Assembly (NCBI RefSeq): GCF_008801715.1
Contig: NZ_VZPG01000001.1
Coordinates: 1,240,001 to 1,304,000 of the forward strand
Reading direction: 5' to 3'
DNA: 64,000 bases
From: Pseudochrobactrum saccharolyticum
GTDB taxonomy: Bacteria; Pseudomonadota; Alphaproteobacteria; Rhizobiales; Rhizobiaceae
Shown in pieces: positions 6,850 through 53,871 of the stretch (position 1 is its first letter; the number at the start of each line of letters is the position of its first letter). Under the pieces are notes generated by a model. It was not told where the DNA came from, did no database searches, and worked only from the letters and a program-made list of their open reading frames with translations. A program made the translations under genes and the position numbers.

Positions 6850-7791
6850 TTAAGCGCGCTTGGCTTCAACCACATCCCAGAACAATTGCGCAATATCCGC
6901 ACCGCCGAAGCGTTTAATCTCGCGGATACCGGTTGGTGAAGTCACGTTAATCTCGGTCATGTAATCACCGATCACATCAATACCGACCAGAATAAAGCCG
7001 CGTTCTTTCAGCGATGGTCCGATACGCGCGCAGATTTCTTTCTCGCGCTCTGTCAGATCAGTCGCTTCAGCACGACCGCCGACATGCATATTGGAACGGG
7101 CATCACTCTCCGCAGGTACACGGTTGATTGCCCCCACCGGCTCACCGTCAATGAGGATGATACGCTTATCGCCGGAGCGCACATCTTTCAGATAACGCTG
7201 GGCAATAAACGGCTCGCGATACATCTGCTCGAACATTTCCAGCAATGATGTCAGATTGCGGTCATCTGTCGTCAGATGGAACACGCCTGCGCCGCCATTG
7301 CCATAAAGCGGCTTGATGATGATATCGCCGAATTCCCTGCGGAATTTGAGCACTTCCTGCAAGTCTTTAGTAATCAGTGTTTCCGGCATCAGATCCGGAA
7401 ATTCTGTGACAAAGATTTTCTCAGGGCTGTTACGCACCCATGCCGGATCATTCACCACCAATGTCTTCGGATGAATACGCTCCAGAAGATGGGTTGTGGT
7501 GATATAGTTCATGTCAAAAGGCGGATCCTGACGCAGCAGGATAACGTCCATTTCCGACAAATCCGTATGCACGGCTTCACCGAGTGTGAAATGATCGCCT
7601 TCAATATCACGCACCTGCAACGGCTCCAGAGCCGCGCTGACAACACCATCACGCATCGACAGGCGATCCGGTGTGTAATGATAAAGCTCATGGCCACGCT
7701 CTGCTGCCGCAAGGCACAAAGCAAAGCTGGTATCACCCGCGATACGAATGGAATTGATATGGTCCATCTGAACCGCAATTTTCAAAGCCAT
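6850..7791 (-). CDS. gshB: glutathione synthetase
   Basis: 313 residues, typical for GshB, the ATP-grasp enzyme that joins gamma-glutamylcysteine to glycine in the cytosol. Family strings include [19 protein letters not shown] at the N-terminus, [49 protein letters not shown] and a C-terminal [20 protein letters not shown] that holds metal ligands. The start is the ATG at 7791, with an AGAGGGCACC segment just upstream. The gene is bounded by hairpin terminators on both sides and so appears monocistronic. Confidence 0.96.
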
Positions 7792-49223: not shown

Positions 49224-49535
49224 TTAGCATTCTTCGCCGAATTTATCGCCGACAAGCTGCTCCAGCGCATCAAGTACGGCTGTTGCCTCAACGCCGCAAG
49301 CGCTGACATCAATGCAACATCCCGGTGATGCGGCAAGCATCATCAACCCCATAATCGATGTGCCACCAACACTCATTCCGTCTTTTTCAACACGGACATG
49401 AGCGTCAAAACTATCCACCAATTGCACGAATTTTGCCGAAGCCCGCGCATGCAGACCCCGCTTATTCACGATCGTAAATTTGCGGGTCTCTGCCTTATCA
49501 GGCTCATAACATCCGCTGACAGCAACCTGAGCCAT
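49224..49535 (-). CDS. ptsH: phosphocarrier protein HPr
   Basis: 103 residues with an N-terminal extension of about 14. The EI-phosphorylated His is in NKRGLHARASAKF (His-29), and the HprK target Ser is in VGGTSIMGLMML (Ser-60). Both sites are therefore present. With EIIA (49616) and HprK (50303) nearby and no EIIB or EIIC, it is probably part of a regulatory PTS rather than sugar import. The leader between EIIA and HPr is made of tandem repeats; the last copy (TACTGACGGG) supplies the only ribosome-site-like sequence. Confidence 0.95.
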   Translation of the reverse strand: MAQVAVSGCYEPDKAETRKFTIVNKRGLHARASAKFVQLVDSFDAHVRVEKDGMSVGGTSIMGLMMLAASPGCCIDVSACGVEATAVLDALEQLVGDKFGEEC

Positions 49536-49547
49536 ATTTATTTTTCC

Positions 49548-49637
49548 CGTCAGTACCTAATCTGATTACCCATCAGTACCTGAGATTATTACTTACTCGT
49601 CAGTACCTGACTTTGTTATTTGCTCGTCAGTACCTGA
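49548..49637 (-). repeat. tandem repeat derived from the EIIA gene 3' end (4 copies)
   Basis: Four units with spacing 23, 27 and 27 bases. On the minus strand each reads about CAGGTACTGACGAGYAARTAA. The first unit encodes the last residues of EIIA (QVLTSK and stop); the other three fill the spacer to HPr. Each contains GTCAG-GTA-CTGAC or a paired variant. No spacers separate the units and the units are too short for CRISPR. Confidence 0.85.
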
Positions 49638-50017
49638 CTGGCAACATTAATATATTTACGGCCTGCATCCTGCGCTTCACGCAATGATGCTTCCATATCA
49701 CCGGACTGACGCACACTGGTCAGTTTAATCAGCATCGGCAGATTAACACCGGCAATGACCTCAACCCTGCCTGCATCAAGCACCGAAATTGCCAGATTGG
49801 AAGGTGTTCCGCCGAACATATCGGTCAGAATAATAACACCCTGCCCCTGATCGGCCTTAGCAACCGCCGCGACAATATCCTCACGACGTTTTTCCATATC
49901 ATCATCGGCACCGATACTAACGGTTTCGAAATTTTCCTGAGGGCCGACAACATGCTCAACAGCATGGTGAAACTCTTCGGCCAGCCTTCCGTGCGTAACA
50001 AGCACGAGTCCGATCAT
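49616..50017 (-). CDS. PTS EIIA component, mannose type (ManX/EIIA-Man-like)
   Basis: 133 residues. IGLVLVTHGRLAEEFHHAVE has the phospho-accepting His-9, and GVIILTDMFGGTPSNLAIS and VIAGVNLPMLIKLTSVR are family strings. No permease subunits are nearby, so it is likely a sensor or regulator in the incomplete PTS typical of alphaproteobacteria. Its last codons are the first unit of the tandem array at 49548-49637. It lies about 285 bases after hprK, with a terminator between, so EIIA-HPr probably has its own promoter. Confidence 0.93.
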   Translation of the reverse strand: MIGLVLVTHGRLAEEFHHAVEHVVGPQENFETVSIGADDDMEKRREDIVAAVAKADQGQGVIILTDMFGGTPSNLAISVLDAGRVEVIAGVNLPMLIKLTSVRQSGDMEASLREAQDAGRKYINVASQVLTSK

Positions 50018-50804: not shown

Positions 50805-52646
50805 TCAGTTTTCCGTATTCTGTGCCGCCTGTGCACGCTGACGTCTGGTGTTTTCCGGTAGTTCCGCAGGCAAATCAATCAGGAACCGCGCACCCAGCCA
50901 ATGTTCAGCATCTTCAGGGTCAGGAATATTAGAAGCTGTTAGTGTACCACCATGTGCTTCGATAATCTGCCGGCTGATTGAAAGCCCCAGACCGGAATTC
51001 TGACCAAAAGCCTCCGAAGACGGGCGATCCGTATAGAAACGCTCGAAAATACGTTCAATATTTTCAGCGCCGATACCCGGACCATTATCCTCAACGACAA
51101 CCTGAATTTTTGAACCTTTATGGTTCAGGTAAATTCTGATTTCACCATTATCTTCCGGCACAAAGGTACGGGCATTTTCAATCAGGTTAGAGACAACCTG
51201 ACCAAGCCGCAAATCATGCCCCGGCAGATAAAAACCTTTTGCCCCTGCCGGAAGCTTGCCGATATCCAGCAGGATTTTTGTGCCCACTTTATTGCGGCGC
51301 ACTTCTCTCGCAGCTGCCACAATATTATTGAGCAGCGCCTGCATATCCACACGATCCGTATGCTCACGGGCAAGTTCGGCATCCAGACGCGATGCATCGG
51401 AAATATCGGTAATCAAACGATCAAGGCGGCGCACATCATGCTGGATCACGTCAAGAAGACGTTTTTTAGCACTTTCGGTTTTCGCCAGAGGCAGCGTTTC
51501 AACTGCACTGCGCAGAGAAGTCAGCGGATTTTTCAGCTCATGGCTGACATCGGCCGCAAAACTTTCAATCGCCTCAATACGTGCATAAAGCGCATCAGTC
51601 ATATCGCGGATCGACGTTGAAAGATGGCCGACTTCATCCTGACGATCGGAGAAATCCGGAATTTCAACACGGCCTTTAATACCGTGGCGCACACGATCCG
51701 CTGCTTCAGACAATTTGCGCAACGGATTAGCAATCGTAGAAGCCAGAAACAGCGACAGGATCACCATCACCAACGACACAACAACAAAGACACGCAGGAT
51801 CGCATTGCGCTCACCGCGGACAATCTTATCAATATCACCGCCCTCGGTCGACATCAGCAAAACGCCGAGCACCGCACGGTAACGCTGGATCGGCACAGCG
51901 ACGGAGACAACCAGCTCACCTTTTTCATTCCGGCGCTGTGCTTTACCGGAAGAACCGGTCAAAGCTGTAATCACTTCCGGATAGACAGAACCATTACCGC
52001 CCGGCGGCTCCTGATAGAGCGGCAGACTGTTGCGGTTAATCAGATTATTGAACCATGTGCTGATCTGCTCGCCAAAACTCTGATCGTCCTCATCCAGTAC
52101 CGGCAAATCATAGCTCAGCACCTGTCCGCGCGAATAGAGATGGCGCGAGTCCAGCAGGATATTGGCATTATTATCGTAAATACGCGCACGGGTACTGGTC
52201 GGAGAAATCAATGTCCGCAGCAGTGGCGCTACTTTTTCCGGATTGATCGGAAATTCCCAGTTATCCGGAGAATCCGGAGAAGGCGTAATACTCTGACCGG
52301 CCTGCAGCTCCAGCAGCTTATCCGGATCGATCATGATCGAATTGGTATCAACGCTTGCCGATGAGGCAATGGAAGCCGCGATAATCTTACCTTGCGTCAG
52401 AAGACTTTCAATCTTCGCGTCCACCAGACCATCACGAAACTGGTTGAGATACATAATCCCCGAAACCAGCACCGCAAGCGCCGCCAGATTGAGAAACAGA
52501 ATACGCTTGGTCAGACTGGAGAAAACATAATTGCCCAATGTACGGCGCAGCGGTGAAAACAGACGCCGCCAGACAAGCGAGCGCTGACGGCGCGCAAGAC
52601 GTTCCTTGCGGCGCAATGTCGTTCTGTTTTCCGTTTCAGCGACCAT
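50805..52646 (-). CDS. chvG: sensor histidine kinase ChvG (BvrS/ExoS)
   Basis: 613 residues. A basic cytoplasmic N-terminus (RRKERLARRQRSLVWRRL) is followed by membrane helix 1 at about 49-67 and a periplasmic domain to about 280 (YSRGQVLSYDLPVLDE, VAVPIQRYRAVLGVLL). Helix 2 lies at about 285-305, followed by HAMP. The phospho-accepting His-369 is in FAADVSHELKNPLTSLRS, and the ATPase boxes are NLIENARTF, VEDNGPGIG and NSGLGLSIS. In rhizobia and Brucella it responds to acid or envelope stress and is held in check by ExoR. The leader upstream contains a hairpin array. The ribosome site is weak. Confidence 0.96.
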   Translation of the reverse strand: MVAETENRTTLRRKERLARRQRSLVWRRLFSPLRRTLGNYVFSSLTKRILFLNLAALAVLVSGIMYLNQFRDGLVDAKIESLLTQGKIIAASIASSASVDTNSIMIDPDKLLELQAGQSITPSPDSPDNWEFPINPEKVAPLLRTLISPTSTRARIYDNNANILLDSRHLYSRGQVLSYDLPVLDEDDQSFGEQISTWFNNLINRNSLPLYQEPPGGNGSVYPEVITALTGSSGKAQRRNEKGELVVSVAVPIQRYRAVLGVLLMSTEGGDIDKIVRGERNAILRVFVVVSLVMVILSLFLASTIANPLRKLSEAADRVRHGIKGRVEIPDFSDRQDEVGHLSTSIRDMTDALYARIEAIESFAADVSHELKNPLTSLRSAVETLPLAKTESAKKRLLDVIQHDVRRLDRLITDISDASRLDAELAREHTDRVDMQALLNNIVAAAREVRRNKVGTKILLDIGKLPAGAKGFYLPGHDLRLGQVVSNLIENARTFVPEDNGEIRIYLNHKGSKIQVVVEDNGPGIGAENIERIFERFYTDRPSSEAFGQNSGLGLSISRQIIEAHGGTLTASNIPDPEDAEHWLGARFLIDLPAELPENTRRQRAQAAQNTEN

Positions 52647-52677
52647 TGAGGGCGATCAGTTCCTTCAGCGAATTAAG

Positions 52678-52713
52678 ACGGAGCGGTTATGCAATGCATT
52701 ATAACCGCTCCGT
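52678..52713 (-). repeat. 13-base-pair hairpin upstream of chvG
   Basis: ACGGAGCGGTTAT and ATAACCGCTCCGT form a perfect inverted repeat around a 10-base loop, 32 bases before the chvG start, with no following T-run on the operon strand. It follows the four-hairpin array. Confidence 0.75.
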
Positions 52714-52734
52714 GCTTTTATATCAGCTATATTT

Positions 52735-52850
52735 GCAAAGCTTCACGCTTCGGGCTTTTTTATATTACGAAGCTTTTACGCTTCGTACTTTCTAAAATGC
52801 GAGGCTTTTACGCCTCGTGCTTTCTTATATTGCGAAGCTTTTACGCCTCG
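52735..52850 (-). repeat. tandem hairpin array derived from the chvI 3' end (4 units)
   Basis: Four units with period 32-33 bases. On the minus strand each reads CGARGCGTAAAAGCYTCG plus a linker such as CAATATAAGAAAGCA. The first unit (near 52833) contains the chvI stop codon in its loop. Stems are CGAGGC/GCTTCG, CGAGGC/GCCTCG, CGAAGC/GCTTCG and CGAAGC/GCTTTG. All pair in the minus-strand RNA, two of them through G.U. The array fills most of the chvI-chvG spacer. Confidence 0.85.
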
Positions 52851-53560
52851 CGGAAGCGATAGCCAACACCGTAAAGCGTCTCAATCATTTCAAAATCATC
52901 GTCAACAACTTTGAATTTCTTACGCAGACGCTTGATATGGCTGTCGATCGTGCGGTCATCCACATAAACCTGCTCGTCATAAGCGGCATCCATCAGCGCA
53001 TCACGGCTTTTCACAACACCCGGACGCTGTGCCAGCGAATGCAGAATAAGGAATTCTGTCACAGTGAGGGTGACCGGTTCGCCTTTCCACGTGCAGGTAT
53101 GGCGCTCCTGATCCATTTCCAGCTGGCCGCGCTGCAATGACTTTGTCGGCTGACCCGGATTTTTAACCGCACCTTCACGGGCCGCCACACGGCGCAGCAC
53201 CGCTTTAACACGCTCTACCAGCAGACGCTGCGAGAACGGCTTGGTGATAAAATCATCCGCACCCATTTTCAGGCCGAACAATTCGTCGATCTCATCATCT
53301 TTCGATGTTAGGAAGATCACCGGCAGATCAGATTTCTGGCGCAGACGGCGGAGCAGTTCCATACCATCCATACGCGGCATTTTAATATCGAAAATTGCAA
53401 GATTTGGCGGACGCGCCATCAGACCATCCAGCGCGGAAGCACCGTCTGTATAGGTCTCGACCCGATAGCCTTCCGACTCCAGAGCAATGGAAACAGAAGT
53501 CAGGATATTGCGGTCATCATCTACGAGCGCAATGGTCTGTGTTACCGGAACTTCCCTCAT
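52841..53560 (-). CDS. chvI: response regulator ChvI (BvrR)
   Basis: 239 residues, OmpR/PhoB type. The receiver domain has acidic VDDDRN and the phospho-accepting Asp-58 in [13 protein letters not shown], with Thr/Lys in FLTSKDD and FITKPFS. The C-terminal winged helix has [18 protein letters not shown] and [16 protein letters not shown]. It is activated by ChvG and in rhizobia controls envelope, exopolysaccharide and metabolic genes. The ATG at 53560 has GGAG upstream; a TTG 6 codons earlier is in frame. Its stop codon lies in the first hairpin of the downstream array. It is divergent from pckA. Confidence 0.96.
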
Positions 53561-53871
53561 CAGGTCGCTTCTCCTCAATCAAATTCGACTATTCAACTTA
53601 TATAGCACGTCTTTTAAGCAGGACAAATTAAGTACAAAGTAAGGCAGCAGCAGTTTTTCTGATGCTTCGCCTGCAATTTATACCCGCTCCAGACACCTTG
53701 CTTATGTGGATAGCGGCAAAATAAATTGCCATAAAAACGATTTAAAAAAAATTTAAAAAATTTTAAACGATTAAAGATTTGAAATTGTCTCGCTAATCTG
53801 GTTGTGACTTTGCCTTAGCGCGGAGAGAAAATGCGCTGTCGACCAACCAATGAAAACTGCGAGTGAAAATT
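53561..53871. other. divergent promoter region chvI / pckA
   Basis: 311 bases between two divergent genes. The middle (about 53735-53785) is a run of A and T with several TTAA words; one pair is 7 bases apart, but low complexity makes it uninformative as a CtrA site. Promoters for both genes should be here. A ChvI site is expected but no consensus is secure enough to mark. Confidence 0.6.

Follow-up and report, generated by a model that had tools for sequence, protein, structure and literature searches.

Stem-loops between the genes of one operon are found in the cip-cel operon of Ruminiclostridium, where they mark cleavage and set stoichiometry (PMC10311766), and in the puf operon of Rhodobacter (PMC11354728). 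The spacer between chvI and chvG resembles both in carrying predicted intercistronic stem-loops, which recur in relatives, and it adds to them a tandem array made from the tail of the upstream gene, a feature not mentioned in the available text on either operon. Palindromes downstream of genes, some of them at most 15 nt from the stop codon as here, are also known as the REP elements of enterobacteria, for which roles in message stability and translation have been proposed (PMC12306157). REPs share their sequence across the genome, whereas the arrays described below, which we call own-tail arrays, are each made from their own gene. The chvI array lacks a second site: when its own genome was searched with it, the best other match covered only 16 nt (E 0.40), so that no dispersed element was found and the shared consensus of REPs is absent. 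REPs are palindromic stem-loops in non-coding DNA; here stem-loops are predicted, and the 5′ arm of the first unit is coding. MIRUs have longer tandem units and form a family dispersed over the genome with a common consensus; here the unit is 32–33 bp long and occurs at a single site in its genome. In mycobacteria the spacer of the two-component pair senX3-regX3 (MIRU-VNTR locus 580) likewise carries tandem repeats in variable number; these are of 77 bp, compared with the 32–33-bp hairpin units derived from the regulator's own 3′ end in the chvI array (PMC9392950). Lastly, arm homogenization and spacer inversion are the described products of polymerase template switching at quasipalindromes (PMC8604942), and quasipalindromes of E. 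coli become more perfect in this way (PMC7202029). Loop inversions occur in three of the six own-tail families described here; unlike these arrays, the template-switch products in the available text of that description (PMC8604942) are without tandem multiplication at stop codons. Among the matches listed in our literature search, the available text held no description of this chvI-chvG array or of own-tail arrays at stop codons.

The two genes, the array and the hairpins lie as follows in the window, by which we mean the whole 64-kb stretch of DNA that was analysed:

52841..53560, minus strand: chvI, response regulator gene; open reading frame read from the ATG at 53560, where the ORF caller began at a TTG at 53578
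50805..52646, minus strand: chvG, sensor histidine kinase gene; open reading frame, best NCBIfam match ChvG NF058527 with 485 bits, below its cut-off of 740
52728..52850, minus strand: tandem array (TRF period 33, 3.8 copies, score 139)
52850-52833, minus strand: hairpin 1, CGAGGC-GTAAAA-GCTTCG, with one G.U pair
52817-52800, minus strand: hairpin 2, CGAGGC-GTAAAA-GCCTCG, 6 Watson-Crick pairs
52785-52768, minus strand: hairpin 3, CGAAGC-GTAAAA-GCTTCG, 6 Watson-Crick pairs, extending to 8
52752-52736, minus strand: hairpin 4, CGAAGC-GTGAA-GCTTTG, with one G.U pair
52678-52713, minus strand: fifth hairpin, 13 bp, between the array and chvG

The gene name chvI is taken over from an earlier, sequence-only reading of this DNA. 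By NCBIfam its product is a response regulator of the OmpR/PhoB type, with none of the 25 families listed above its cut-off, and the best relative among the matches listed is a protein from Ochrobactrum sp. Q0168 with 95% identity, in a search that may leave out entries for the window's own genome and those closest to it. The sequence and TRF confirm what the sequence-only reading had described, namely four units of 32–33 bases with these stems and loops and with the chvI stop codon TAA (52843-52841, minus strand) in the loop of hairpin 1; the 13-bp hairpin reported before chvG is also present where it was placed. A-rich linkers join the 6-bp hairpins, and the 5′ arm of hairpin 1 is formed by the last codons of chvI. 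The predicted fold of the operon-strand RNA (52650-52856, minus strand) has hairpins at all five places and an energy of −74.2 kcal/mol (z −6.3), and that of the plus-strand RNA over the same positions reaches −69.6 kcal/mol (z −4.6). As 0 of 200 shuffles were as good in either case, the structure of the spacer is far above chance on both strands. Rfam gave 0 matches at the gathering score across the 64-kb window. The chvI and chvG orthologues of Brucella abortus are co-transcribed according to RT-PCR across the intergenic regions, and the same is stated by citation for B. melitensis (PMC9491525); co-transcription is thus known from orthologous genes of another genus.

Seven genomes of the window's genus were sampled, and chvI was readable in six of them (G000, which contains the window, G006, G004, G001, G005 and G003), G002, which is 61% complete, yielding no chvI. 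In the order given, the array has 4, 2, 2, 4, 4 and 2 units and the chvI-chvG spacer measures 194, 130, 128, 186, 185 and 124 nt, and the near relatives G000 and G006 thus differ two-fold in unit number. Over the 18 units, 101 of the 108 stem pairs can form (93 Watson-Crick and 8 G.U, the remainder being 2 A.C and 5 other), and own arms pair better than arms dealt at random (mean 97.5, P about 0.001, kinship not removed); the species are related, and the counts are therefore not counts of independent events. The arms are more alike (mean pairwise identity 0.84 and 0.77) than the linkers (0.62), and the stems have a GC content of 0.78 compared with 0.24 in linkers and 0.22 in loops, A making up 0.56 and T 0.20 of 17 of the 18 linkers. 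In unit 1 of G004 a synonymous codon position of chvI has changed together with its 3′ partner. The sequence-only reading had looked to an alignment of the spacer across relatives, and the outcome is mixed: most pairs are kept, but some units have lost pairs, with 3 of 6 left in unit 2 of G004 and one non-standard pair each in units 1, 2 and 4 of G001 and unit 4 of G005. A TRF screen of 105 loci (a set that counts some genomes twice, as with L014 and L039), from the end of chvI to just past the start of chvG, found an array in seven. Three of these belong to the genus, whose two-unit members were not flagged, and in the other four (L054, L092, L102 and L104, the last two with the array past the estimated chvG start) no chvI-like unit was seen by eye. 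In L054 (Mesorhizobium sangaii), a 60-bp hairpin element is doubled in tandem in the chvI-chvG spacer, an independent case.

The sequence-only reading had further claimed that conservation of pairing is limited to the RNA of the operon strand, and for the array this could not be upheld. The 8 G.U against 2 A.C pairs have to be compared with the means of 11.3 and 5.5 obtained from arms dealt at random, which are unequal because particular bases vary in particular arms; the binomial P is 0.31 against the dealt-arm ratio and 0.055 against 1:1, and with the outermost seventh pair included the counts become 9 G.U and 8 A.C. Opposite-strand pairing also beats its shuffles (P 0.003, compared with 0.0009 for the operon strand), and the plus strand, as noted above, folds too. 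A scripted count over five array families, which is a weak measure, gave 4 G.U and 4 A.C in 68 unique hairpins, among them hairpins in the tail beyond the units, to which at least two of the A.C cases belong; rows of G002 and G004 for one family (L181), where the stop codon picked up differs from the one that ends the gene, were excluded. Strand-specific pairing of the array was rejected on the ground that its G.U excess is within what dealt arms give, and judged from these pair counts the array offers no clear strand evidence. The strand argument was over-read, and the better-supported RNA element is the adjacent fifth hairpin.

For the fifth hairpin, the spacers of 35 species were compared, and 32 of them contain a hairpin with 7 or more Watson-Crick pairs, as do 507 of 1750 letter shuffles. 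These spacers comprise 28 from the genus of G022 (30 loci fetched, with L280 and L293 unparsed and 5 of 35 genomes having no fetched locus), six from the window's genus and one from Paenochrobactrum, and no hairpin over the threshold was found in L292, L299 and G001. Among 25 unique arm pairs the isolated interruptions are 14 G.U, 2 A.C, 3 T.T, 1 C.T and 1 A.A, whereas the shuffles gave 88 G.U and 98 A.C (binomial P 0.002, kinship not removed); one of the G.U cases comes from L306, which together with L290, L297 and L305 forms a group in which the scripted choice probably fell on non-homologous palindromes. Selection acting on the RNA of the operon strand predicts such a bias toward G.U, and a C-to-T bias on the non-template strand could contribute to it. 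Within the window's genus the sequence of the fifth hairpin differs by species, yet it remains largely paired. In the genus of G022, 26 of the 28 parsed spacers are over the threshold, and in 21 of these 26 the chosen hairpin begins once 11–16 nt of the spacer have passed, its stem occurring in several sequence versions. Over the 341-base query, the Brucella tritici sequence (L033) and that of G078 of this genus are identical. Five spacers of the same genus (L290, L296, L297, L304 and L305) are longer and have further palindromic stretches beside the hairpin. In the wider set of 105 loci, 32 of the 80 spacers of at least 35 nt have a z below −2 (median −1.3), the six of the window's genus included, and a spacer hairpin is not general in this set. 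The reading as selected RNA fits the fifth hairpin better than the array.

Other genes of the genus also have own-tail arrays at their 3′ ends, and the chvI array belongs to this class. A second member lies in the same gene cluster:

49616..50017, minus strand: PTS EIIA-like gene (mannose type), open reading frame, the 3′ end of which is repeated in the second array
49546..49645, minus strand: second array, four copies of the EIIA 3′ end by eye (TCAGGTACTGA...), filling the EIIA-HPr spacer
49224..49535, minus strand: HPr gene downstream of the second array, open reading frame, NCBIfam TIGR01003 above cut-off

The EIIA gene matches the NCBIfam families AgaF and EIIA-man, both below cut-off. Its spacer to HPr measures 80, 53, 76, 133, 106 and 136 nt in six species, with a copy number that varies by eye. 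As an array of RNA hairpins this one was rejected, the fold mainly forming pairs between units, and in G003 the palindrome that has been multiplied is broken, which makes an intact palindrome unnecessary for multiplication.

Of the 15 arrays of period at least 20 in 764 kb of G000 with 705 ORFs, 8 lie within ORFs, 6 span a stop codon, 1 is intergenic and none is at a start. The six stop arrays follow chvI, the EIIA gene, a dipeptidase (L166), an ABC transporter ATPase (L174), lspA (L180) and a phosphodiesterase (L181), and two of the six come from the window, which is part of the sample and was itself chosen for its array. The L181 gene belongs by NCBIfam to the RNA 2′,3′-cyclic phosphodiesterases and is presumably thpR. 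We scored own-tail repeats as recurrences of the final 45 nt of a gene within the 160 nt behind it with a score of at least 26, a cut chosen from a table of cuts, on gene ends from our own, untrained ORF caller. They were found at 8 of 647 3′ ends in G000, 4 of 330 in G005 and 3 of 326 in G003 (permutation means 0.5, 0.4 and 0.17), and in the outgroups at 0 of 320 in G022 and 1 of 325 in G021 (means 0.17 and 0.4). In total 15 of 1303 3′ ends in the genus contrast with 1 of 645 in the outgroups (Fisher P 0.03), a contrast between partial samples of each genome and with two outgroup genomes; at 5′ ends the counts are 2 of 1235 and 1 of 619 (genus 3′ vs. 5′, Fisher P 0.002). With a laxer score of 24 there are 17 of 1303 against 3 of 645 at 3′ ends, and 2 of 1235 and 4 of 619 at 5′ ends, where G022 has 4 of 312 (permutation mean 0.8). 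Seven matches listed in G000 score at least 28, that of EIIA among them and that of chvI not. Stop arrays of period at least 20 called by TRF number one in G005 (plus two at starts), three in G003 (plus three intergenic), none in G022 and one in G021; at period 15–16 there are four stop arrays in G022, so that short repeats at stops are not confined to the window's genus. Single stop-spanning hairpins were considered as a genome-wide trait and dismissed, as at score 16 they are only in mild excess (19 against 8.4 expected over 472 ends in G000, 5 against 4.0 over 221 in G005) and this is seen in G022 too (10 against 5.7 over 217); because of this mild excess it is the arrays, and not single stop hairpins, that mark the genus.

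How arms come to match can be compared among the array families. In thpR the 5′ arm of the first hairpin lies in the last codons and the 3′ arm after the stop, and four species (G000, G006, G003 and G001) of the five readable carry four different paired versions, three uninterrupted and one with a G.U, which differ at synonymous positions; in the fifth species, G005, only 5 pairs are left. Taken alone, these versions would read as RNA selection. In three of six families, however, hairpins with equal inner arms have inverted loops: TCTC and GAGA in L166, both in G004; TTAC (G000, G005) and GTAA (G006, G003) in the distal hairpin of thpR; and GTA and TAC in EIIA. The chvI, L174 and L180 families showed no such inversion, two species (G001 and G005) giving no match for the L174 gene. 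In the L166 family G006, G005 and G002 have no array and end in a non-palindromic tail, for which reason the palindromes look newly made, and the old gene end appears to be in the last copy. The inversions point to template switching in the sister arrays, not in the chvI array itself. Arm homogenization between relatives is found for the chvI arms and for the four versions of thpR, and RNA selection predicts the same. The compensatory change that the sequence-only reading had taken as a sign of RNA selection is present, and as proof it is weakened, because the loop inversions indicate template switching in three sister families; a compensatory change alone is weak evidence of RNA function here.

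We favor, with a probability of about 0.6, a reading in two parts, that is, a conserved intercistronic RNA hairpin together with a genus-specific own-tail array. The fifth hairpin would belong to the chvI-chvG message as an RNA element whose structure, and not its sequence, is maintained in the window's genus and the neighboring Brucella/Ochrobactrum genus. It could form a barrier to 3′-to-5′ RNA decay that shields the chvI part after cleavage in the spacer, with the result that the regulator would outnumber the kinase. The four-unit array would be an amplification of the chvI 3′ end within the genus, born by tandem duplication of the chvI tail, which may have been tolerated because the first copy keeps the protein and the stop codon. 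Template switching may make or keep palindromes and in this way at least partly keep the stems of the array matched. The array is lineage-specific and probably born of mutation; through it the message probably carries additional small, independent hairpins joined by A-rich linkers, the benefit of which is putative. Its origin is thus probably wider and more ordinary than the sequence-only reading had proposed, and what looks in an array like a textbook case of RNA covariation may have arisen, at least in part, by mutation. In the chvI array both RNA selection and template switching may have acted. Its lack of inverted loops and the better fit of own than of dealt arms, which RNA selection would likewise produce, count against our two-part reading.

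The sequence-only reading had instead held the whole array to be a selected RNA element, in which hairpins and A-rich linkers would serve as RNase sites and exonuclease barriers and tune the chvI-to-chvG ratio, with the number of units setting the strength. The observation behind it is real, and the interpretation has partial support: six species share the hairpins, arms pair better with their own partners than with dealt ones and vary less than the linkers, stems are far richer in GC, hairpins are predicted at all five places, the joint change in unit 1 of G004 fits, and stem-loops in the spacers of cip-cel set stoichiometry (PMC10311766). Yet the array shows no strand bias beyond column composition, the number of units differs two-fold in near relatives, pairs are missing from some units, unrelated genes carry the same kind of array behind them, and the loop inversions of sister arrays offer a neutral route to matched arms. 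We regard selection on the whole array as rather unlikely. Somewhat less doubtful, though still only tentative, is the idea of a genome-wide class of self-made hairpin arrays at 3′ ends in the genus. The final codons, the stop and the palindrome would be multiplied behind the gene, each array with its own sequence and with synonymous positions kept matched to the untranslated arm, and these locally born hairpins would serve single genes as dispersed REPs serve other genomes.

Two narrower explanations concern the direction of action and the stop codon. That the spacer hairpins work on the plus strand as a row of terminator-like sites halting antisense transcription into chvI appears highly improbable to us. 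Three such sites occur on the plus strand in 52600-53700, two of them within the spacer, while the minus (operon) strand has 0 intrinsic terminators there, and linkers that are A-rich on the operon strand become T-rich after the stems on the plus strand. The excess is small, however, against 1.5 sites expected over both strands, the interruptions of the fifth hairpin favor operon-strand G.U (14 vs. 2), and the only plus-strand ORF of at least 100 aa touching the spacer (52817-53140) is mechanical and antisense to chvI. It is also quite improbable that hairpin 1 affects termination of chvI translation, in the manner of E. coli REPs at most 15 nt from a stop codon, with the other units as by-products. 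REPs near a stop codon stall ribosomes according to earlier work cited in PMC12306157, and all 6 of the 6 species compared in the genus have a stop-spanning hairpin at chvI that scores at least 12, with 5 of the 6 reaching at least 14. Outside the genus its frequency is near chance (24 of 100 loci vs. 18.5 expected at score 12, and 13 vs. 7.7 at score 14, by which we reject it as a general chvI trait), the stem is small (6 bp and −8.2 kcal/mol for unit 1), and in G001 the stem of hairpin 1 has a mismatch. Our two-part reading tells the likely functional part of the spacer, the fifth hairpin, apart from the lineage-specific array, and the sampled gene-tail arrays provide material for telling selection from template switching.

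Several other repeats were observed at or near gene ends in these genomes. Behind thpR in G000 (L181, 6909-7062) the 3′ end is repeated about four times, a 10-bp hairpin enclosing the stop codon in its loop, and the converging neighbor gene (about 7140-7170, and its orthologues in G004 and G006) seems to have a tail array of its own, with four to five copies of GTCGGCTAGCGCCTCA-like units by eye in G004 and G006. A stop-spanning hairpin with a second copy of the tail about 50–80 nt downstream occurs twice in G000 (L160, 8070-9713; L172, 10167-11831). In G003 a 54-bp unit present in 3.4 copies spans a stop codon and forms GTCTC-GTAA-GAGAC hairpins (L324, 3174-3358), and a 59-bp intergenic repeat in 3.5 tandem copies does not lie at a stop codon (L308, 8141-8346). 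The top 5′-end repeat in the G000 sample, with a score of 70, is an ORF start that is duplicated just upstream of itself (L175, 767-1072).
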